A DNA stretch of 47,048 nucleotides from Porphyra umbilicalis (lineage: Eukaryota > Rhodophyta > Bangiophyceae > Bangiales > Bangiaceae), in contig KV919215.1 in NCBI GenBank assembly GCA_002049455.2, positions 1 through 47,048 on the forward strand. Direction: 5' to 3'. The position numbers were made by a program, and so were the translations under genes. The number at the start of each line of letters is the position of its first letter. The stretch's first letter is position 1. A model generated the notes under the pieces. The model had not been told where the DNA came from and ran no database searches. It was given only the letters and a program-made list of their open reading frames with translations. Shown piece after piece: positions 662 to 40,754 of this stretch.

Positions 662-3600
662 TCAATCGAGGGCCTCCACCACCTCGGGCCCCCCCGCCGG
701 GCGCTTGATCCGCCGCGTGGTCGTCAGCCGCGCCGCCTGCCGCGGCCCGAGGGTCGGCACGCTCGCAACGACGCGCGCGGCGAGGGCGGCGGCGCGGCGG
801 CTCAGGCCGACCGTGTCGGCGCCCGCGTGCAGCAGCGCCACGACGACGACCCGCCAATCGTCGAGGCGGGCGCGGTCCGCGGCGCTGACGCTCGCGCGCT
901 CCGCCGCGCCGCGGCCGCGGCGCAGCGCGTGGCCAACGGCAACGGCGCGGAGGGGGATGTCGGGCCGCGAGTCGGGCGACAGCGCCGCCGCCGCCCGCCG
1001 CCGCGCCAGCAGGTCGAGCAACCACTTGAGGGCGGCGGCAAGGGGCGTCTCGTCGACGCCATTGGGGCGCCGCGCGTCGGCGCCGCGGTGGAGGAGGGCC
1101 ACCACCGCCTGGCGGTCGGCGCGGCGGCTGGCCACGTGCAGCACCCGGTCGCCAGCGTCCTTGTCAGCAGCGTGGAGGAACGGGCGCACCGTCGGGTGGT
1201 CCAGCAGCGTGAGGCGCTTGTGCCGCACCGCCTCGAGGGCGGGCGTGCTCGTCGCGTCAGCCGGGTGCTCGGCGGGTAGCAGGTCCATGATGGGCTGGTG
1301 GCCGAGCGTCACCGCCATGCACAGGGGCGTGACGCCGAGGAGGATCGCGGCCGTGGGGTTGGCGCCGTGCCGGAGGAGTGCGGCCACCATGGCGGGTTTT
1401 CCCTGGCTTGTGGCACAGTGCAATGGGGTCCACCCGTCTTGGTCGGTGGCGTGCACGTCAGCGACTGCCTCGAGTAGCGCCTCCAAGACTTTTGAGTGGT
1501 AGTTCCACGCCACCAAGTGCAACGCAGTCCTGCGGTCACTGCGCTTGGCGTGCACATCGGCGCCCGCCCCCAGCAGTGCTTGTACCGCCTTGGGGCACCC
1601 ACGTTCACAAGCCGGGTGCAGCGCAGTCGTACCGTGGGTGCACGTGGCGTGCACGTCGGCGCCCGCCGCTATCAGCGAGTGTACCGCTCCAGCGCGCCAG
1701 CACCAGCCCGCATAGTGCAGCGCCGTCCTGCCGTCGTCTGCCTTGGCGTGGACGTCGGCGCCCGCCGTCAGCACCACCTGTACCGCCTCGGCGCACCCGC
1801 TCCTGCCAGCATAGTGCAGCGCCGTCATGCCGTTGTCTGCCTTGGCGTGGACGTCGGCGCCCGCCGTCAGTACCACCTGTACCGACTCGGCGCACCCGCT
1901 CGCGCCAGCCCAGTGCAGCGCCGTCATGCCGTTGTCTGCCTTGGCGTGGACGTCGGCGCCCGCTGGCAGCACCACCTGTACCGACTCGGCGCACCCGCTC
2001 CAGCCGGCACAGTGCAACGCCGTCATGCCGTCGTCTGCCTTGGCGTGGACGTCGGCGCCCGCCGTCAGCACCACCTGTACCGCCTCGGCGTACCCGCTCC
2101 AGCCGGCACAGTGCAACGCCGTCATGCCGTTGTCTGCCTTGGCGTGGACGTCGGCGCCCGCCGTCAGCACCACCTGTACCGACTCGGCGCACCCGCTCCT
2201 GCCAGCATAGTGCAGCGCCGTCATGCCGTTCTCTGCCTTGGCGTGGACGTCGGCGCCCGCCGTCAGCACCACCTGTACCAACTCGGCGCACCTGCTCCTG
2301 CCAGCATAGTGCAGCGCCGTCATGCCGTTGTCTGCCTTGGCGTGGACGTCGGCGCCCGCCGTCAGCACCACCTGTACCGCCTCGGCGCACCCGCTCCTGC
2401 CAGCATAGTGCAGCGCCGTCATGCCGTTGTCTGCCTTGGCGTGGACGTCGGCGCCCGCCGTCAGCACCACCTGTACCGCCTCGGCGCACCCGCGCGAGCC
2501 GGCACAGTGCAACGCCGTCATGCCGTCGTCAGCCTTGGCGTGGACGTCGGCGCCCGCCGTCAGTACCACCTGTACCGACTCGGCGCACCCGCTCCAGCCG
2601 GCCCAGTGAAACGCCGTCATGCCGTTGTCTGCCTTGGCGTGGACGTCGGCGCCCGCCGTCAGCACCACCTGTACCGCCTCGGCGCACCCGCTCCTGCCGG
2701 CACAGTGCAACGCCGTCATGCCGTCGTCTGCCTTGGCGTGGACGTCGGCGCCCGCCGTCAGCACCACCTGTACCGCCTCGGCGCACCCGCTCCTGCCAGC
2801 ACAGTGCAACGCCGTCATGCCGTCGTCTGCCTTGGCGTGGACGTCGGCGCCCGCCGTCAGCACCACCTGTACCGACTCGGCGCACCTGCTCCTGCCAGCA
2901 TAGTGCAGCGCCGTCATGCCGTTGTCTGCCTTGGCGTGGACGTCGGCACCCGCCGTCAGCACCACCTGTACCGCCTCGGCGCACACGCTCCTGCCAGCAT
3001 AGTGCAGCGCCGTCCTACCGTCGTCTGTCTTGGTGTGCACGTCTGCGCCTGCCGTCAAGAGCGCCTGTATCGTGTTGGTACACCCGCTCTGTCCCGCCAC
3101 GTGAATCGCTGTACGGCCGTTGTCGTCACGGGCTTCAAGATTGGCCTTCGCCGCAAAGAGGACGTCCAAGATCGCTGCTCTTCCAAACGCAGTGGCGTGA
3201 TGCAGTACCGTTTGGCCACTGCCGTCTGTGGCGAGCACATCCGCACCCGCTTGCACCAACACCTCCATCGTTCGAGCGTTCCGGCTCCACGCCGCGTGGT
3301 GGAGAGCAGTCGCACCGTTGTCTGCCGTGACGTGCACATCCGCGCCCGCTGTTAGCAGCGCCCCCACAACTTCGGTGCGCCCACCCCACGCCGCATAGTG
3401 CAGCGCGTTCTTGCCCTTCACTCCTGTAGCGCGCACGTCGGCGCCCGCCGCCAGCAGCGCACCCACAGCATCGGCGCTTCCACCCCACGCACTCGCGTGC
3501 AGAGCTGTCCACCCGTCGCCGTCTGGCACTTGTACGTCGTTTCCGGCGGCCAGCAGTGCCGTCACGGCCGCGGCGCTGCCGCGCAAGCCCGCCTCGTGAA

Positions 3601-3781
3601 GCGTCCAGCACAGTGGGTGCGCCCCGTCGGCGGACCCGCCGTGCCCCAATGTCATTGTTGCCGCATCCGCGCCGCCGCTGGCTGGGGGTGGAGACGGCCG
3701 GTCACCGCCGCTCGACGCGTCGGCGGGAGTCGCCGAGTCGACTGTCGGCGACTTGGACGCTTTGGACGCGCCGCCGCCCAT
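662..3781 (-). CDS. Ankyrin-repeat protein, about 25 repeats, possible N-myristoylation
   Basis: This 1039-residue protein is almost entirely ankyrin repeats of the form G-x-TALHxA...VxxLLxAGADV. Ankyrin repeats are protein-protein interaction modules, so a scaffold or adaptor role is likely; no enzymatic domain is visible. About six diverged repeats (residues 50-255) are followed by 13 nearly identical 33-residue repeats (about 255-685), five or more diverged repeats, and a less repetitive Ala/Arg-rich C-terminus. I chose the ATG at 3781 over the in-frame ATG four codons upstream (3793). It gives MGGGASKASK, which fits the N-myristoylation pattern (Gly2, Ser6, Lys7) and suggests membrane anchoring; this is inference. 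The Ser/Pro-rich segment at residues 8-40 is probably disordered. The partner is unknown. The frame is intact with no intron. Confidence 0.85.
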   Translation of the reverse strand: MGGGASKASKSPTVDSATPADASSGGDRPSPPPASGGADAATMTLGHGGSADGAHPLCWTLHEAGLRGSAAAVTALLAAGNDVQVPDGDGWTALHASAWGGSADAVGALLAAGADVRATGVKGKNALHYAAWGGRTEVVGALLTAGADVHVTADNGATALHHAAWSRNARTMEVLVQAGADVLATDGSGQTVLHHATAFGRAAILDVLFAAKANLEARDDNGRTAIHVAGQSGCTNTIQALLTAGADVHTKTDDGRTALHYAGRSVCAEAVQVVLTAGADVHAKADNGMTALHYAGRSRCAESVQVVLTAGADVHAKADDGMTALHCAGRSGCAEAVQVVLTAGADVHAKADDGMTALHCAGRSGCAEAVQVVLTAGADVHAKADNGMTAFHWAGWSGCAESVQVVLTAGADVHAKADDGMTALHCAGSRGCAEAVQVVLTAGADVHAKADNGMTALHYAGRSGCAEAVQVVLTAGADVHAKADNGMTALHYAGRSRCAELVQVVLTAGADVHAKAENGMTALHYAGRSGCAESVQVVLTAGADVHAKADNGMTALHCAGWSGYAEAVQVVLTAGADVHAKADDGMTALHCAGWSGCAESVQVVLPAGADVHAKADNGMTALHWAGASGCAESVQVVLTAGADVHAKADNGMTALHYAGRSGCAEAVQVVLTAGADVHAKADDGRTALHYAGWCWRAGAVHSLIAAGADVHATCTHGTTALHPACERGCPKAVQALLGAGADVHAKRSDRRTALHLVAWNYHSKVLEALLEAVADVHATDQDGWTPLHCATSQGKPAMVAALLRHGANPTAAILLGVTPLCMAVTLGHQPIMDLLPAEHPADATSTPALEAVRHKRLTLLDHPTVRPFLHAADKDAGDRVLHVASRRADRQAVVALLHRGADARRPNGVDETPLAAALKWLLDLLARRRAAAALSPDSRPDIPLRAVAVGHALRRGRGAAERASVSAADRARLDDWRVVVVALLHAGADTVGLSRRAAALAARVVASVPTLGPRQAARLTTTRRIKRPAGGPEVVEALD
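1727..3013 (-). repeat. Tandem array of 13 x 99 bp ankyrin-coding repeats
   Basis: The sequence accacctgta recurs on the plus strand at 1774 and every 99 bases up to 2962, giving 13 exact periods. Units differ at only a few positions, for example NG versus DG, HY/HC/HW, and SGCAEA versus SRCAES in the encoded repeat. Each unit encodes one 33-residue ankyrin repeat, so copy-number change keeps the frame. Boundaries are approximate. Confidence 0.93.
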
Positions 3782-3793
3782 GGCGGTGGGCAA

Positions 3794-4215
3794 GCAGAGG
3801 GAGCGCCAGTGTAGGACGAAACCCCGAGAAAGACGGATGGAGACCGGCAGGCACGGTAGTCGTGCCGTGCGGGGGTGGGAAAAAACACACGCGCGGCGGC
3901 AGGCTCGGCTTGAAGGTGTTTGCCGGCGCGCTCAACAGCGGCGTGTGCACGACCGCCGCTCGCGGCGAGATGGGGATACTGCTGTTGGCGAGAACAAGAA
4001 AAGGGAGGGTACGCGAGGATGGTGCAGCGGAGGGGTGGTGAGGTCACCCGCGGTGGGCTGTGCGTGCACGCGCGCCCGCCCGTGCTGGCTCTTGTTGGCC
4101 CGCACCGGCGGCCGTGGGGCCCCCCGCCGGGACTCATGACTCCCCCGCTCCGACAGCAGGTCGTGCCCCATGGCGCAGCACGGCCAGCCCCCGCAGGGTC
4201 ACCTGCAGCCCTGCC
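3794..4215. other. Intergenic region upstream of the ankyrin gene
   Basis: No supported gene. It should hold the promoter and 5' UTR of the minus-strand ankyrin gene, but I see no convincing TATA or initiator. The TIR element starts at its distal end. Confidence 0.4.
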
Positions 4216-14624: not shown

Positions 14625-16268
14625 CTATGCCCACGACACGGCCGCCGCCGCCGAGCGCGCGGCTTCGGCGAGGCGCCCCCCGTCGCCGTGGAGCCACTGG
14701 GGGCTCCCCAGCCCCGCGCGGTAGGCCCAGCGCAGGGGCGCGAGCAGCGCCGCCGCCGCGCCCGGCGCGACCGCCGTCGTCAGCGTCGACACGCGGAAGC
14801 CGTCGACGACCATGTCAATGCCGTCGAGCACCGCCGGCGCGTAGAGGCCCTCGGCGGTCACCGCGTCGACGGCCACGACCGGGTCGGCCACCGCCCCCGA
14901 CGCCGCGCACGCACCGTCGGCGGTGGGGAGGCGCTCGAGGGTGGCCCCCACCGCCACCGAGCCGGCGCGCACGAGCGCGCCCGACGCGTAGATGAGGTGC
15001 CCCGCCGACGCGGTCAGCGTCGCGCCCGACGCGGTCGTCAGGCGCACAAAGGGGAAGGTGCCAGCCGTCAGCCGGTGGCTCCACATAAACACCTCAGAGG
15101 TCGTGCCGGCGCCCGTGGCGACCGCGTCGCCAGTGGCCACATCCCGCATCGCAACGGTCGAGCCGTCGGCGAGACGCACCGAGGCGGCGCCGGGGAAGCA
15201 CACCGGGTCGTCATCGTCATCGATCGGCGTCGGCTCGGAGGTGTCCTCGGGGGTGGCCTCGGGCGTCGGCGCGGGCGTCGGCGCGGGCGTCCGCGCAGGC
15301 GTCGGCGCGGGCGTCGGCGCCGCGCCGCCCTCGTCATCATCATCATCCCCCTCGGTGGTGACCGCCCCACCCGCAGCGGAACCGCCGCCGCCACCGCCAT
15401 TGTCGTTATCGGCGGCAGAGACGGTGGCGAGCCTGCCCGGCGGCCCGTAGCAGACGATCGAGCGGCCATTGGTCGGCTGGATGGGCCGGTTGTTGGCCGT
15501 CTCGTCCAAACCCGTCTGGACGCGGCGGAAGCGGCGGAAGCGCTCCACCTGCGCCGCCGAAACGGGCAGAATCGACAGCTCGAGGAACCACGTCAGCTGG
15601 TCTTCCGTGCAGGGGGGCGTCGTCAAGGAGCCCGGCCACGAGCAAAAGCCGGCTTCGGGGCGCTCGACCGTCCCCCACTCGGTCGTCGTGACGCCGACGG
15701 TCGTGTTAGTGGCCCCGCCGACCGCCGACTCTTGGGCGTCGAGCAGCCGGCTGAGGAGCTGGTTGGGCGTCGACGACAACTCAAAGAGCACCCCCACAAC
15801 GGCAATGCGGCTGCCGGCCGTGTGGACAAAGTGGAGCTCCAGCGGGAATTCCCTGCCATTCACCGTGTGCTCTGCCGGCGCGTGCGCGTGCACATTGACG
15901 AGGGAATAGGTGTTGAACCGCCACTGCAGCTGCCCACACTGGTCCGTCGCGCACTCGAGCGGCACATTGTTGATCGACGTGCGCGCGGTGAAGGAGGCCG
16001 TCCCCGGGCGAACGAGGGAGAAGAGCGTCGTGTCAACGTCGACCGTCGGCGTCAGGAGCACGTTGATGGGGGACTGGCGTTCGCCCGCTTGGCACACGTC
16101 AAAGCGGTTGTCGAGCTCGTGCCAAAACTCGGGACCCGTCTGCCCCGTGTAGTTCCACGGCGTCGAATCGTCGGCGCGCACCGTCGCCGGCAGGGCAGTG
16201 GCGGCGGCGGTGGCGGCCGCGGCGGCCGCCGCCACGGCGGCGAGCGCCACCGTCACGGGGCGGACCAT
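14625..16268 (-). CDS. Secreted alpha-carbonic anhydrase fused to a C-terminal Hog/Hint domain
   Basis: This 547-residue protein joins two recognisable modules. Residues 1-32 form a signal peptide with a long Ala/Val core. Residues 38-275 are an alpha-type carbonic anhydrase, which interconverts CO2 and bicarbonate. Visible are QSPINV (65-70), zinc ligands His127 and His129 in VHAHAPAEHTVNG and His146 in LELHFVH, and the SLTTPPC segment (214-220) with the catalytic Thr216. Cys59 and Cys220 probably form the disulfide usual in secreted members. A Gly/Asp-rich stretch and a Thr-Pro repeat linker (about 287-354) follow. Residues 357-500 are a hedgehog-type Hint domain: CFPG with the nucleophile Cys357, SAGHLIY with His424, and GLYAPAVLDGIDMVVDG. 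In known Hog proteins this module cleaves itself off by thioester chemistry. A role in periplasmic inorganic carbon supply, with release or modification of the enzyme by Hog, is inferred. The frame is intact without introns. Confidence 0.93.
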   Translation of the reverse strand: MVRPVTVALAAVAAAAAAATAAATALPATVRADDSTPWNYTGQTGPEFWHELDNRFDVCQAGERQSPINVLLTPTVDVDTTLFSLVRPGTASFTARTSINNVPLECATDQCGQLQWRFNTYSLVNVHAHAPAEHTVNGREFPLELHFVHTAGSRIAVVGVLFELSSTPNQLLSRLLDAQESAVGGATNTTVGVTTTEWGTVERPEAGFCSWPGSLTTPPCTEDQLTWFLELSILPVSAAQVERFRRFRRVQTGLDETANNRPIQPTNGRSIVCYGPPGRLATVSAADNDNGGGGGGSAAGGAVTTEGDDDDDEGGAAPTPAPTPARTPAPTPAPTPEATPEDTSEPTPIDDDDDPVCFPGAASVRLADGSTVAMRDVATGDAVATGAGTTSEVFMWSHRLTAGTFPFVRLTTASGATLTASAGHLIYASGALVRAGSVAVGATLERLPTADGACAASGAVADPVVAVDAVTAEGLYAPAVLDGIDMVVDGFRVSTLTTAVAPGAAAALLAPLRWAYRAGLGSPQWLHGDGGRLAEAARSAAAAVSWA

Positions 16269-21721: not shown

Positions 21722-22918
21722 TTAATACATGGCAGGTGTGTACGGCCGCCGAAGCGCAAGAGTCTCCATTCGCGCCGTCATACGCACCCGCAAGTCCGAA
21801 CGCTCACGGTCTCGCCTCCGCCCCCTACGGTCCGGTGCATCGTTTTCGCTGAAATATATTCCAGCGGCGTCGCCGTCGCCGCCATATGGTCCCGGAGCTG
21901 GTTCCCCGTCGCAATCCACCCGCCTACAAAAATTGTGGAGCTTGAAGCAAGCGCGGATGAGACTGGGTCTCTTGCAAAAGGGCACACGCAGTGGGCGCCA
22001 AAACACCCCCCACCTCCACACCAACATACCAAAAGCCTGCTCTATGTGGATGCGTGATGATGATTGGTGGAAGTTGTATGAGTCCCGCCAGACGTCTCCG
22101 CCGCCCCCACCAGGCCAGGGCGTAGCCAGCAGCTCTGAAGCGCCGTACGCCTCGTCCGCGGCGATGCAGTAGCCGTCCGCGATCATCTCCATGATGGCGC
22201 GGTCACCGACAGACGGGAACATGAGCCGCCGCCCAAGCTTCGTGTTGGCGAAGGCGGAGGCATCGTGCACGGACCCGGGGCTTGTACAGCTCATCCAGGT
22301 AAACTCGTAGGAGGCGTTGCAGATAGCTTGAGTGTTAAGGGCATAAAATCCCTTCCGGGAGTAGTGGTCTGCGAGGCATTGTCCGCTGCTGACGGAGGGC
22401 TGCTCTTGCTTCACCGCAATTCCGTGGAGTGCCCCAATAATGTTGTCAAACGGCCCCTCCCCTCGCGCCTGGAAGCCTGCAGCGGTATGCATCCTCCATA
22501 TGGGGTCGCCCAGGGGCAGGGAGAACTTCAGCGCCGGCACGGCGTTGATCGCGTCCACCACCGACCACAGGGAGTTGTAAAATGACGCCACGGAGCAGCC
22601 GAATACGGCCGCAATGTCGATATAGCTCCCACCGCCCATGTACCGTAATGCCATCGCCGTCTTCATAGCCGGCGAGTACGCATGTGTGGGCAGGTGGGGG
22701 CGCAGCGTGTCGACGAGGGTGTCAAACGCCGACTCCGACATCCGCATCGCGCGCGGGAACATGGCGCCGTACCGCTCGCGTACGTCCGCAAAACCCATCA
22801 AGCGCGGCACAGCGCGCCGGCCAGCGGGGGAGGCAAATATGCCCCTCCGAAGGGTGCACACAGCAACAATGGAGTCGGACAACGACGTCCACGCAGGATA
22901 AAAGGACGCGGTTTCCAT
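21722..22918 (-). CDS. PIF/Harbinger DDE transposase with a substituted catalytic residue
   Basis: This 398-residue protein starts at METASFYPAW (22918). Residues 60-125 hold the helix-turn-helix-like region typical before the catalytic core (MSESAFDTLVDTLRPHL, YIDIAAVFGCSVASFYNSL). The core of DDE_Tnp_4-type transposases follows. The GALHGIAV motif (residue 165 is His) stands where the family has Gly-x-x-Asp-Gly. Then come PGSVHDASAF with Asp219, AADEAYG with Asp255, and IHIEQAFGMLVWRWGVF with Glu293. These enzymes cut at the TIRs and integrate the element. His165 (codon CAC at 22424-22426) is one base from an Asp codon, so this copy is probably inactive by point mutation or a base error. 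The reading frame is otherwise intact. An upstream in-frame ATG (23119) would add 67 residues unlike the family. Confidence 0.9.
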   Translation of the reverse strand: METASFYPAWTSLSDSIVAVCTLRRGIFASPAGRRAVPRLMGFADVRERYGAMFPRAMRMSESAFDTLVDTLRPHLPTHAYSPAMKTAMALRYMGGGSYIDIAAVFGCSVASFYNSLWSVVDAINAVPALKFSLPLGDPIWRMHTAAGFQARGEGPFDNIIGALHGIAVKQEQPSVSSGQCLADHYSRKGFYALNTQAICNASYEFTWMSCTSPGSVHDASAFANTKLGRRLMFPSVGDRAIMEMIADGYCIAADEAYGASELLATPWPGGGGGDVWRDSYNFHQSSSRIHIEQAFGMLVWRWGVFWRPLRVPFCKRPSLIRACFKLHNFCRRVDCDGEPAPGPYGGDGDAAGIYFSENDAPDRRGRRRDRERSDLRVRMTARMETLALRRPYTPAMY

Positions 22919-24131
22919 CACGGGAGGGCGGCTGGCAGTCGAGGGGCATAGAATTGTGGGTAGGTTACGGACACAAAGAGCGAAACAAGAGAGAACAAAT
23001 AGAGGGGGTGTATTTATACCCGTCGCAGGGGATCCAGAGCGACGGCTCGTGCTCCGCGCTTGGGCCATCCCACGACCCTCAATAGCCGACAGTGGCCTCC
23101 ATGGGTCCGGTCTGAGCACAGCTGGTCTACAGGCGGCGTCGAGAGGTACACCCGCCCAGCATGCCCCCCTTCCTGCGAGGCTGCAGATCGCAGCTGCCTC
23201 CTCTGTGGCCGGAAAGGTGGGAGCACAACACCCTCGGTCGCCACGTCCTGATGGACCGCGTCGCTCTCTTCAGGAGTGCCGCCGCAGTAGGCAGCAGCGG
23301 GTGCTCCCGCGCATCCCCCCCCCCTCCCCCCACCCCCGCATCTCACGCCCACCGCGTCTAGCGACCTCGACAGCCGTGGTCGGTTCCTTCAACGTCGCTG
23401 GGCGACGTACTGTCGGCCCAACGCCACGACAGCCGAAACCCCACCCCCCCCCCGCCCGACATACACGTCCGCTCCTCGTCACAGCCGCCACTGGTAGCGG
23501 AGTTGCTGACGGCAGGCCCCACGGTCCGCCTAGACCATGACGGCTGAGCCCGCCCCCCCCCCCCCCCCCCCCCGCTCGCCCCCCCGCCCCTCCACCGCCC
23601 CAACAAGCTCGTGCGGTCACCACGACGGGTAGTCGGCAGTTGACGACCAAGAAGGCCTATCCGAGAAGAATAAGAACACAAACAGCAGCAGCACAAAAAG
23701 GATGGCACACAGACAGAGGGGGAGAGGGGGGAACCACAACAAATACTGGAAGGGGAACATGGAGGAGGGCTAGGGTTTGCACTGCGGGCGTGTCAGCGAC
23801 CACGTCCGCCGCCAAGCGCTCGAGATGCAATCGCCATCGACTAAAAACGAGGTGCCCGAGAAGCCACAGTCTCCAGGTTCACGTACGTGGTAGGAAGGAG
23901 GGGGGGGGCGGAATACGTGCGGCGGCAGGCAGCGGCAAAGAGATGGGCAAGGGGGGGGCGGAGGTGGCGGTCTGGTCGCGTTGCACGACGTGCGCCGTGC
24001 TGAGCCCAGCAACCGAGCGCTCGAAATCAGCCCTTGGATCGACAATCACTTAACTTCGAATTCATCAAACAATTCCGCCTGACACTGTCACACGAAGGGA
24101 CGACCCACTGCGACCTTTCTAAGCTGAGAGC
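22919..24131. other. 5' flank of the transposase and right subterminal region
   Basis: No supported gene. It contains C/G runs (about 23318, 23441, 23550-23572, 23890-23909) and probably the transposase promoter. Closer to the right end, TCACACGAAG motifs appear. Confidence 0.5.
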
Positions 24132-25237: not shown

Positions 25238-26298
25238 GTGACTGCTGCTCTCCGCGCCCGCCTGGCCGCTGCCGAGGCGGCTCTGTCGGACACGCAGCGG
25301 GACCTGACGACGGCTCGCGACGCCGTTGCCGCCCGAGAGGCCGCCGCCGCTGCTGCCGCCACCGGCAAGACGGACGACGCGCTCGGTGACGGCGGAGCGC
25401 CAACTGGCGCTGACGCTGGACGCGGCCCGGCTGCTGACAGCCTCGCAGCCGCGGGGTCGGCGGCGACGAACGCTGACCGCCGCGACGCCGCCCCCCCCGC
25501 GGGTGCCGGAGCCGCGGACGGCGGCTGCAGCCCCGCAGCCCCCCCTGCGGGTGTCCTCGGCGCTGCCGGTGCCCCCCTCGGGGGCGACGACGTCGGCAAC
25601 TATGACGGCTTTGACGAGGGTGACGACGACGCGGCTGCCGGCGGCTGGGTGCCCGCCCACGTCGGCGACGTCGGCCGCGCCGGTCTCCCTCGGCGCCCGG
25701 CGGCTGACGATCACGGCGCCTACGACGACGGGTTTGACTTCCCCACTCGCATCTCCTCGTCGGAATGGCTGCAGAGCTTCGATATCCCCCGCTCCTTCAT
25801 GCGGGTGGACGGATTGCCCATTCCGTTTGCGCCATGTGACCCCGTCCACATCGCCACTTTCACGGTCAGCAGCAGGGATGAATTCGAGGAGCGCCACTGG
25901 TGCTGCTCTCTCTCCTGGACGCAGCAGCTCTATGACGACGTTCTTGACGCCAACTTTGCCGACAAAAACACCATGGAGTACCTAGAGGAGCTCGTCGACT
26001 TCCTCGTCGCTGCTACCCGCCGTGTCTCCGCCCTTTCCGTCTCGCGCTACGATTATCTCGCCTTGGGCCAGTCGGAGCCCGACCTCGCTGACGCCTTTGC
26101 GCACGCGGAATCCATCCCTCGCAACTCCCTTCGGGGCGACGGTGCGCGCCGCGTCATCTTCCGCGTTGTCCGCGCCGAAACCACCGCCTCGGTCAAGATC
26201 GGCGCCGCTGAGCGCGGATTCACCTATCCGCAGCGCGCCAATCGGGCCAACGCCCTTGCCCCTGCTTGTAGCGGCCGCGTGGGTGGGCCCGCGGTCAA

Positions 26299-26337
<39 letters not shown>

Positions 26338-26404
26338 ACGTGGCGGCGGCAGCGGCCGCGGGGGCCGTGGCGGCGGCCGCGGCCGTGGCCGTGGCCGGGC
26401 CTAA
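25238..26404 (+). CDS. Gag-like ORF of the DIRS-like element
   Basis: The frame is open from 25196 without an ATG; 25238 is a GTG used here only as a marker, so the real start is unknown. An N-terminal heptad pattern (LRARLAAAEAALSDTQRDL) predicts a coiled coil. An Ala/Gly/Asp-rich acidic linker follows, then a folded-looking domain (about residues 165-340) with FDIPRSFMRVDGLPIPFAP and RHWCCSLSWTQQLYDDVLD. The C-terminus is a Gly run and an RGG/GRG-rich basic tail typical of nucleic-acid binding. Position directly before the reverse transcriptase and the RGG tail support a nucleocapsid-like role. No CCHC knuckle is visible. It ends nine bases before the next ORF, in another frame. Confidence 0.6.
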
Positions 26405-26412
26405 ATTTCGCT

Positions 26413-27549
26413 GTGCCACGGGGGGGTCGCTTCTCCCCTCCCGTGGCATTGGCCGCAGAGAGCACGCGCGGCCGCCCACCCGGCCGCGCGCACCGGACGG
26501 AGCTGCCAAGGCCCAGCCCCTCCCGCCCAGTGCCGGTGTTCGAGGCCCTGTGGGCCGCTCTTCCGCGTTGGTTGCGGATGGGCGTGTCCCCTTGGGTCTC
26601 CGACACCATCTCGGGTGGCGACCGGGTCGAGTGGGCCTCTCCCCCGACACCGCTTATTTCGCCCGAGTACCCGGTGCCGCCCGAGGACCGCCCCTTCCTC
26701 ACAGCCGAGATCCAGCGTGGGCTAGACCGTGGCTACATCGAGGAGGTGACCAACCCGGACGACATCCACGCGCTCGTGTGCACAAGCTCGGCTTTCGTCG
26801 TCCACTCGGCGCAGAAGCCGCGGGTGGTCTACGACTACAAGCACTTCAACAGCTTCACGGCGACAGCGAGCTGCAAGTACGAGACGCTGCTCGAGATTGC
26901 CCAATCCTTGCGTCCGAACGATGCGCTGCTGACATGGGACGTGCAGGATGCTTACCACCACCTCCTACTGCGCCCCGCGGACCGCAGATACCTCGCGTTT
27001 CACTGCCTGTCTCGGTTCTTCGTTCCCGTGACGATGCCTTTCGGCCTGGCGAATGATCCCCTGACGTGGACAAAGCCTATGCGCCCGGTCGTCCAGCACC
27101 TGCCGGAGGCTGGCTTCCGCATCCTTCCGTACGTGGACGATTTTGGCGGCGCCCCTCCGGCAAGACCAGGGGTAGCGGGGACCCGGGAGCAGGACGTGGC
27201 GGCCTACTGCTACGCCAAGCACCTCTTTGGGGAGCTCGGCCTCCGAATGCACCCAACCAAAGGGGTCAAGGACGGGCCGACGTGTGTGCGGCTGCTCGGC
27301 CACTTGGTCGACACCAAGCTGGCCCGCTTCCTCCTGCCGCCCGACCGCGTCGACAAGATTGCAGCCATGGCGGATGGCCTCCTGCGTCGCACCACCGACC
27401 ATCGACGATGGGTCAACTTTGTGATGTTGCGCCGTTTTTGCGGCACCGCGGTGTCCACGACCCTCCGTGCCGTCGGCTCGCTACCACCTGCGCAGCCTCT
27501 TTACCGCAATGCAGCTCCGCCGCCCACGCAGCGGCGACGTGCAAGTTGA
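26413..27549 (+). CDS. Reverse transcriptase of the DIRS-like element
   Basis: The 378-residue frame contains a reverse transcriptase: PRVVYDYKHFNSF (template-grip region), DALLTWDVQDAYHHLLLRP (motif A, catalytic Asp), MPFGLANDPLTWTKPMRPV (motif B) and ILPYVDDFGG (motif C; YVDD at 27130-27141). LGLRMHPTKGVKDGPTCVRLLGH follows as thumb-proximal sequence. It copies element RNA into DNA. Near 27470 the natural continuation moves to another frame, where the RNase H domain lies, so the RT frame ends in an unrelated tail at 27549. A single-base indel is the simplest reason. Relationship to DIRS elements is inferred from the RT/RNase H style. Confidence 0.85.
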   Translation: MPRGGRFSPPVALAAESTRGRPPGRAHRTELPRPSPSRPVPVFEALWAALPRWLRMGVSPWVSDTISGGDRVEWASPPTPLISPEYPVPPEDRPFLTAEIQRGLDRGYIEEVTNPDDIHALVCTSSAFVVHSAQKPRVVYDYKHFNSFTATASCKYETLLEIAQSLRPNDALLTWDVQDAYHHLLLRPADRRYLAFHCLSRFFVPVTMPFGLANDPLTWTKPMRPVVQHLPEAGFRILPYVDDFGGAPPARPGVAGTREQDVAAYCYAKHLFGELGLRMHPTKGVKDGPTCVRLLGHLVDTKLARFLLPPDRVDKIAAMADGLLRRTTDHRRWVNFVMLRRFCGTAVSTTLRAVGSLPPAQPLYRNAAPPPTQRRRAS

Positions 27550-39736: not shown

Positions 39737-40754
39737 ATGGCGTCGTCGGTGGTGGGCACGCCCATGGAACCCGTGCCGGCGGTCAAGTGGAGCTCGACCA
39801 CCGCCAAGGGGTGGTCCAACCCGACCGGACAGCTGCTGCGCCCCCTCGACGACAACATTTGGGTGGCGGAGCGTACCTTTTTTCCCTGTACGTCGGTGGC
39901 AGGGGGGGGGAGTTCCTCTACCATTTTCTCTTATCATTGTGTAGGGCGGGGTGGTTGGTGTTGTTTGCTCCTCAGAAGTGTGCGCAGTAGCTCTTCTCTG
40001 ATGCCAGTGGCTGACGCTCGTCCACCTCTGCATCCCCTCCTCCCTGATCCACTCATCGTCTTCTTGGCGCCCCCCTCCCCCCGCCCCCCCCCGGCTGCGT
40101 CAATCCTTCTCCCTGCCCCGCCAAACAGCCGCGTCGGCCCCCGACATTGGCGGCAAGACGACCATCATCAAGCTCGCCGACGGCTCCCTCTTTGTGCACA
40201 ACCCCCTGCTGCTGACGCGGGAGCTGGTCGACGCGCTCGCCGCCCTCGGCCCCGTCTCCCACATTGTGTCGGCGAGCCTCGCGCACCACGGGTACATGGC
40301 GCAGTGGCTGGGCAACTTCCCCAACGCGGTCGGCCTCGGGCCGCCCGGGCTCGCCGACAAGTGCCCCCACATCCCCCTGGCGGGCGCCCTCGGCGACACG
40401 CCCGTCCCCGCCCTCGCGGCGGACGTGGAGCAGGTGTGGGTGTCGGCCGTGCCGACCTTTTCCGAAACGGTCTTTTTCCACCGCCCCACCCGCACGGTGC
40501 TCGTCACGGACCTGCTGATGCACTTTGGGGGCAAGGCGGAGGGGTACAGCTGGGGCTCCCGCCTCGTCGGCGCCGTCTTTCGGGGGCCCGTCCGCCGCGC
40601 GACGCGGAGCGTGTTGGCCACGGACCGCGCCGCGTTCCGGGAGCAGATTGGCCGCGTGGCCGCGTGGAAGGCGCAGCGGCTGGTCATGGCCCACGGGTCG
40701 ATTGTGGAGGGGGACGTCGACGCAGCGTTGCGCAACTGGTTTCCGTTCCTTTGA
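39737..40754 (+). CDS. DUF4336 family protein (two exons)
   Basis: Exon 1 is 39737-39872 and exon 2 is 40129-40754, 253 residues. Splicing gives LLRPLDDNIWVAEP followed by DIGGKTTIIKLADGSLFVHN. This is the start of DUF4336, a family of cyanobacteria, algae and plants thought to have a metallo-beta-lactamase-like fold. Family-like segments follow in order: ELVDALAALGPVSHIVSA, a His pair at residues 98-99 (ASLAHHGYMAQW), FPNAVGLGPPGLADKCPHIP, and SETVFFHRPTRTVLVTDLL. The last block corresponds to the FFHrpSrTLivtDl motif. The biochemical function of the family is not established to my knowledge. The short N-terminus (MASSVVGTPME) shows no clear targeting signal. The frame is clean across both exons. 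Confidence 0.85.
39873..40128 (+). other. Intron of the DUF4336 gene
   Basis: The 256-nt intron runs from GTACCTTTTTTCC to CCGCCAAACAG and is phase 1. It is T- and C-rich. Its removal joins GAG C to CC GCG, restoring family-like sequence across the junction. Confidence 0.82.

Follow-up and report, generated by a model that had tools for sequence, protein, structure and literature searches.

A Porphyra umbilicalis gene joining an alpha-carbonic anhydrase to a Hog-type module with histidine at the place of Hedgehog Asp303

The window analysed here, a 47,048-nucleotide stretch of Porphyra umbilicalis DNA (contig KV919215.1), contains a gene encoding an alpha-carbonic anhydrase (CA) followed by a linker and a Hog-type module (Table 1). 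Translation of the frame gave no internal stop, the frame running over 547 codons and a stop, and the coordinates given in the earlier note were correct, as were its positions for His127, His129, His146, TTPPC (216-220), Cys357 and SAGH (421-424). The first 32 residues resemble a signal peptide by eye and by hydropathy, and the CA-Hog protein, with its carbonic anhydrase, is probably secreted. The Thr-Pro linker described earlier corresponds to an Asp- and Thr/Pro-rich stretch between the two domains, with pLDDT below 50 at residues 284-354 in the AlphaFold2 model. A near-identical protein (P0002, 99%) was recovered in the homologue search from other contigs, where it sits on two contigs, neither longer than 2092 bases, about the size of an mRNA. 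The window also holds a frame consisting largely of ankyrin repeats, a frame with a DUF4336 match and, on the higher-coordinate side of the CA-Hog gene, transposase-like and reverse-transcriptase frames that are mobile-element remains.

Table 1. Features of the CA-Hog gene and other frames of the window (positions counted from the first letter of the window).
Feature	Positions	Strand	Basis or remark
CA-Hog fusion gene	14625..16268	minus	single open frame, 547 codons and stop
Signal-peptide-like N-terminus, residues 1-32	16173..16268	minus	hydrophobic stretch after first Met; cleavage site inferred by eye
Alpha-carbonic anhydrase domain, residues 45-272	15453..16136	minus	Pfam Carb_anhydrase
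Zinc ligands His127 and His129	15882..15890	minus	sequence alignment
Zinc ligand His146	15831..15833	minus	sequence alignment
Low-complexity Asp- and Thr/Pro-rich linker, residues 276-356, last residue Val356	15201..15443	minus	composition, low conservation
Cys357, predicted nucleophile; predicted cut Val356/Cys357	15198..15200	minus	aligns with Hedgehog Cys258
Hint fold, residues 357-497	14778..15200	minus	Pfam Hint, alignment, model
His398, at the place of Hedgehog Asp303 (D46)	15075..15077	minus	aligned with His of 6TYY and Asp of 1AT0
[S/T]xxH motif, Ser421-His424	14997..15008	minus	alignment
C-terminal helix-loop-helix, helices 502-520 and 532-546, with P511 and R513	14631..14765	minus	AlphaFold2 model and fly Hedgehog alignment
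1089-aa open frame, largely ankyrin repeats	665-3931	minus	PF12796, E 1.6e-177
DDE_Tnp_4 transposase-like frame	21725-23269	minus	E 7e-19
Reverse-transcriptase match	26272-27546	plus	E 6e-8
Frame with DUF4336 match	40002-40751	plus	E 2e-15

The domain at residues 45-272 is, judged from sequence and predicted fold, an alpha-carbonic anhydrase, having a match to Carb_anhydrase above the cut-off (PF00194; E 4.3e-26, 92.5 bits, cut-off 27), an alpha-CA fold, the zinc ligands and the Thr gate. The three ligands align with His residues of 4C3T, a solved bacterial alpha-CA, and the gate is present as SLTTPPC (Thr216/217). The 50 Foldseek matches listed are all carbonic anhydrases or the CA-like dioscorin. 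No His was found in the alignment at the usual proton-shuttle place, where the protein has Asn-Asn-Val-Pro (100-103) with Val102 opposite a His of 4C3T that we take to be the proton-shuttle position. Because this place lacks a His, the CA of the fusion may be slow.

The Hint profile (PF01079) matches residues 356-516 (E 1e-14, 55.1 bits, cut-off 29.7), so that the comparison with Pfam Hint/Hog profiles proposed in the earlier note came out above the curated cut-off; Vint scored 14.8 bits, below its cut-off of 27. The assignment rests on a VIA-align structure match together with sequence, the Foldseek matches listed being of the CA type only, and the AlphaFold2 model is moderate (mean pLDDT 64, pTM 0.46, last two blocks 51 and 45, from an alignment of 15 sequences). 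Cys357, Ser421 and His424 stand opposite Cys258, Thr326 and His329 of Hedgehog in the alignment, the Cys pair also by VIA-align. Among 61 Hint places read out of the genome, 60 have Cys at the position of Cys357, in an alignment anchored on the C[FYLIV]P motif. The first position of the TxxH motif is Ser in 37 of the 61 and Thr in 24, and is Ala in one of 86 proteins from other sources. With Ser the commoner state, the earlier suggestion that Ser in this motif may alter activity is without support, and Ser-for-Thr was rejected as a defect. Of the earlier proposal, the fusion and its domains held, with conserved active-site residues and predicted folds; self-cleavage and sterol attachment are supported only by inference from the retained catalytic Cys and His and the His at the general-base place.

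After the Hint core, a helix-loop-helix stands where, in the alignment with full-length fly Hedgehog, that protein has its sterol recognition region. Motifs J and K (named as in PMC2362128) were found as VSTLTTA and LLAPLRW, opposite SCYA and LAPMR of fly Hedgehog, and helix 502-520 is predicted; no HWY motif (motif L, on the second sterol helix of animal Hedgehog) was seen by eye in the tail, where the AlphaFold2 model places helix 532-546 at low confidence. Opposite H374, a residue of the first sterol helix, stands Ala506 (His in 17/61 genome places), and Thr495 takes the position of the second Hedgehog Cys, Cys400 (Cys in only 5/61). The residue before Cys, which is Gly (G197) in SHH according to PMC7906309, is Gly in none of 60 genome places and in one of the 86 other proteins; the Val before Cys357 may slow the chemistry. 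The evidence supports a protein made of an alpha-CA joined to a Hog-type module, that is, a hedgehog Hint with C-terminal helices. Hedgehog proper was rejected, as the protein has no N-terminal Hedge domain, with only Carb_anhydrase and Hint above cut-offs, and has His398 and Thr495 instead of Asp303 and Cys400; an intein was likewise rejected, there being no C-extein, terminal Asn or His-Asn end, and 50 residues in predicted helices following the Hint core.

The interesting departure from animal Hedgehog, overlooked in the earlier note, is His398 at the place of Asp303. His is found here in 61/61 genome places and in 86/86 proteins from other sources, which are not all independent (8 are at least 95% identical to genome Hints, 9 are at 80-95% and 69 are below 80%) and come from a collection in which two source searches scored only 7999 and 7995 candidates sharing most words. 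This set includes P0045, a Gracilariopsis chorda protein bearing the annotation 'Indian hedgehog B protein', again with His, and leaves aside P0009, P0010 and P0091, which have no C[FYLI]P start for alignment anchoring; this biases the counts of the Cys, but not those of the two His. Because the Hint paralogues of the genome have a mean pairwise identity of 45%, the invariance of this His is strong evidence of function. In Hedgehog, as described in PMC9163320, Asp303 takes part in cholesterol activation and in coupling of both steps, and D303A keeps DTT cleavage and loses full cholesterol transfer. The engineered D303H (6TYY) is reported there to keep the fold and Hedgehog activity with a wider sterol range, reacting far better with coprostanol and epicoprostanol.

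The earlier note had also overlooked that Hog tails occur on dozens of proteins in this genome, the CA-Hog fusion among them. At least 80 Hint match rows were found in 83.8 Mb, with at least three genes giving two rows each. Pfam on the 61 places found Hint in all, fasciclin in two, kelch in two, imelysin in one and carbonic anhydrase in the same frame in one, with a weak DOMON match under the cut-off in one more; most remaining N-termini had no Pfam match. Many N-termini have a signal-like start (by hydropathy only), and Ala, Pro, Gly, Thr and Asp abound in the 60 residues before Cys (59 places). Proteins from other contigs combine a similar Hint with a kelch, Cu monooxygenase, fasciclin or trypsin domain, with one protein for each. 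The imelysin (Peptidase_M75) fusion (L027, C21:227242-227730, E 3.6e-27) has an enzyme- or transport-like cargo. Contig C243 has seven Hint match rows within 20 kb (31984-51783), and the four places read there (L060, L064, L074, L078) have in common a short N-terminus with an EIAxLPPL motif. On C145 (131720-137368), a fasciclin-Hint gene lies about 3 kb from a frame with apparently two tandem CA copies.

Among the 31 homologues listed by a search that scored 7999 candidates sharing most words, 13, including P0002, have both Pfam domains, so the fusion is not due to chance. The same fusion, for which the earlier note had proposed a search in other red algae, is present in other Bangiales, to which all named close relatives belong, and continuous two-domain proteins were found in P. 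vietnamensis, in P. umbilicalis and in other contigs. Between the window protein and P0003, 159 of 237 positions are conserved in the CA and 112 of 154 in the Hint, and much fewer in the linker (17 of 60). PF00194 matches occur on 12 genome contigs, with a Hint adjoining the CA on the same strand in C439, C220 and C455; in C439 and C220 it lies directly downstream, in another frame in this assembly. In C439 (L002/L003, 41811-43849, minus strand) about 165 bases, falling inside a linker of MPVAPFPQQPQ repeats, separate the matched parts of this CA-Hint paralogue; P0008 holds both parts in one frame at 100% identity, and the frame split may be an intron, an allele or an assembly difference.

Other relatives depart from this arrangement. 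Two Porphyra umbilicalis proteins, P0014 and P0016, have lost zinc ligands and kept the Hint residues (His127 is Ala in P0014 and lies outside the coverage of P0016; His146 is Gln in both), and probably represent a dead CA with a live tail. For P0016 the genome has no near-identical copy, its three best matches there reaching 43-47% identity. The short-contig CA proteins P0009 and P0010 have no Hint match, and their differing C-termini resemble, by eye, out-of-frame Hint after a shortened linker; they may be Hint-less splice isoforms or assembly errors. Viral contigs gave 11 loci, each matching the CA part only, in a scan whose patterns came from the CA part alone and in which Hint was not sought.

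A careful tree was built from 63 rows, comprising 54 of the 61 genome places (L068, L079, L080, L062, L073, L014 and L032 omitted) and nine CA-Hint proteins from other sources. It grouped ten core CA-Hint rows at 94/89 and joined them with the P0014/P0016 pair at only 60/25, by which a single origin for all CA-Hint fusions is not established; the 12 CA-Hint rows form one side of a branch (94/92) against the other labelled rows alone, and support for the whole set was 84 in a quick tree of 145 rows. At least two CA-Hint lineages are, on sequence, older than the split of this alga from P. vietnamensis, with C220 placed in the trees beside P0011, and C455 and C439 grouped with P0005 and P0006. 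In the careful tree, fasciclin and DOMON-like cargo are intermixed, C260 grouping with C145 at 99/87 within C100 at 100/98, with the DOMON-like label given by eye to four of the five rows. As cargo types are intermixed, tail or cargo seems to have been exchanged during evolution.

The most likely reading, which we consider slightly more probable than not, is that the window protein is a Hog-type precursor that is cut before Cys357 and whose enzyme is passed to an alcohol, perhaps a sterol. The precursor would be secreted as an alpha-CA cargo followed by a flexible, possibly glycosylated linker and the Hog module. In the secretory pathway, Cys357, aided by His424 and Ser421, would attack the Val356 carbonyl to form a thioester; His398 would activate the incoming alcohol, which the C-terminal helices would present at the membrane, and the acyl group would pass to it, giving a CA with an ester at its new C-terminus and a shed Hog part. 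At the plasma membrane or in the wall, the released CA could then convert HCO3- to CO2. We rate cleavage as likely, since the residues of the first step are retained. That the acyl group goes to an alcohol or a lipid and not to water is mildly favoured by the invariant His at the second-step place, workable in D303H, and by the largely conserved Pro/Arg helix. A sterol in particular, our best guess for the alcohol, is tentative: it is the natural guess because PMC8234223 names cholesterol as the main sterol of 37 red algal species (with detection in Pyropia tenera), and the lack of Gly before Cys (60/60), of Cys400 and of a visible HWY motif counts against it. The same source puts cholesterol at only 1.3-8.6% of analysed sterols for Porphyra and Palmaria, an argument against cholesterol itself. 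The role in carbon supply is conceivable, at a little under even chances; the use of external CA stated for Pyropia yezoensis gametophytes in PMC7491142 fits such a role and is no pointer to the CA-Hog gene.

The module might instead cut itself by thioester hydrolysis, acting as a timer or propeptide that frees a plain soluble enzyme without lipid. The Cys, [S/T]xxH and fold are those that the first step requires, and the non-Gly residue before Cys and the lack of a Cys400 counterpart and of a visible HWY motif put the module at a distance from cholesterol transfer; hydrolysis is nevertheless unlikely, since it offers no clear reason to keep the mostly conserved Pro/Arg helix or an invariant His at a place that in Hedgehog serves the transfer step and not DTT cleavage (as described in PMC9163320). 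Decidedly unlikely is an attack on the thioester by a cell-wall sugar or amine, linking the protein covalently to matrix polysaccharide or protein, like eukaryotic wall sorting; wall- or matrix-like cargo (fasciclin, kelch, DOMON-like and CA, with trypsin and Cu monooxygenase in other contigs) and the broadened substrate tolerance of the engineered His reported in PMC9163320 would suit it, whereas the modelled C-terminal helices look like a membrane or sterol reader. A Hint that is still folded and has lost processing, remaining as a fixed C-terminal domain, is improbable given two invariant His and a Cys in 60/61 places among paralogues only 45% identical on average. An artefact of gene model or assembly in which two adjacent genes are read as one, as the differing frames of the C439 and C220 paralogues could suggest, is extremely improbable and was rejected in view of the stop-free window frame, the continuous fusions from other contigs and from both P. 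vietnamensis and P. umbilicalis, the union of both C439 parts in P0008 and the fused relatives with differing linkers in several species.

Hog-related domains in red algae and protists, mentioned in the earlier note, were already known from Burglin 2008 (PMC2362128), which records them in Porphyra, Chondrus, Griffithsia and Gracilaria, states that the region upstream of the Porphyra Hog matched nothing in other organisms and proposes that an ancestral Hog protein was secreted and added a sterol or a comparable moiety. Kelch-Hint proteins have been described in Cyanidiales (PMC9812998), a diatom with more than 290 Hint genes has been reported (PMC12803021), and a paper of 2026 still gave the function of non-Hh Hog proteins as unknown, naming matrix building via lipid modification as a possibility (PMC13353863). 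No published CA-Hint fusion was found in the open-licence PMC literature, where most subscription papers are missing; red-algal Hog proteins were thus known before, and the carbonic anhydrase cargo appears new. The dozens of Hog tails predicted here suggest a little-known route to release proteins, or to anchor them by lipid, outside the cell. Their extension to a general system, in which dozens of secreted enzymes and adhesion proteins of red algae swap a self-cleaving tail for a sterol or other alcohol, with the His as base and a broad choice of alcohol, is a speculative possibility; its role would be likened to that of GPI signals or sortase motifs. If true, protein sterol esters would occur beyond animals, covalent cholesterol attachment being described as Hedgehog-only in PMC4695875 and PMC7242414, and one cargo anchored by a sterol would be the external carbonic anhydrase of laver. 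Because this natural Hog family has an assayable enzyme as cargo and a natural His, it can be tested directly whether the chemistry predates animals. The carbonic anhydrase would serve as a read-out, and carbon uptake by the seaweed is a plausible physiological role for it; natural His-type Hog domains could be of use for attaching other alcohols to protein ends.

With the bacterial alpha-CAs 4C3T, 1KOP and 4XFW, the fusion has in common the fold, the three His zinc ligands and the SLTTPPC block, and differs from them in its Hog tail, an added insertion and the absent shuttle His. The animal Hedgehog autoprocessing domain (1AT0; D303H in 6TYY) shares the fold, the Cys nucleophile, [S/T]xxH and a Pro/Arg helix after the Hint, whereas the fusion has His instead of Asp303, Val where Gly precedes Cys, Thr instead of Cys400, no visible HWY motif and an unrelated N-terminus. 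Non-Hh Hog proteins from red algae and from other protists are described in PMC2362128, where Porphyra Hog ORFs are listed: as in the fusion, they have a variable N-terminus, a Hint with motifs J and K, and Ser, Thr or Asp replacing the Cys of motif J; the N-terminus of the fusion is a recognisable enzyme, in contrast to the upstream region without a match. The kelch-Hint proteins of Cyanidiales, as described in PMC9812998 and PMC13353863, likewise join another domain to a Hint through a Thr/Pro/Ala-rich linker and are multicopy, but differ from CA-Hog in having kelch cargo, in being mostly subtelomeric and in belonging to unicellular extremophile red algae.
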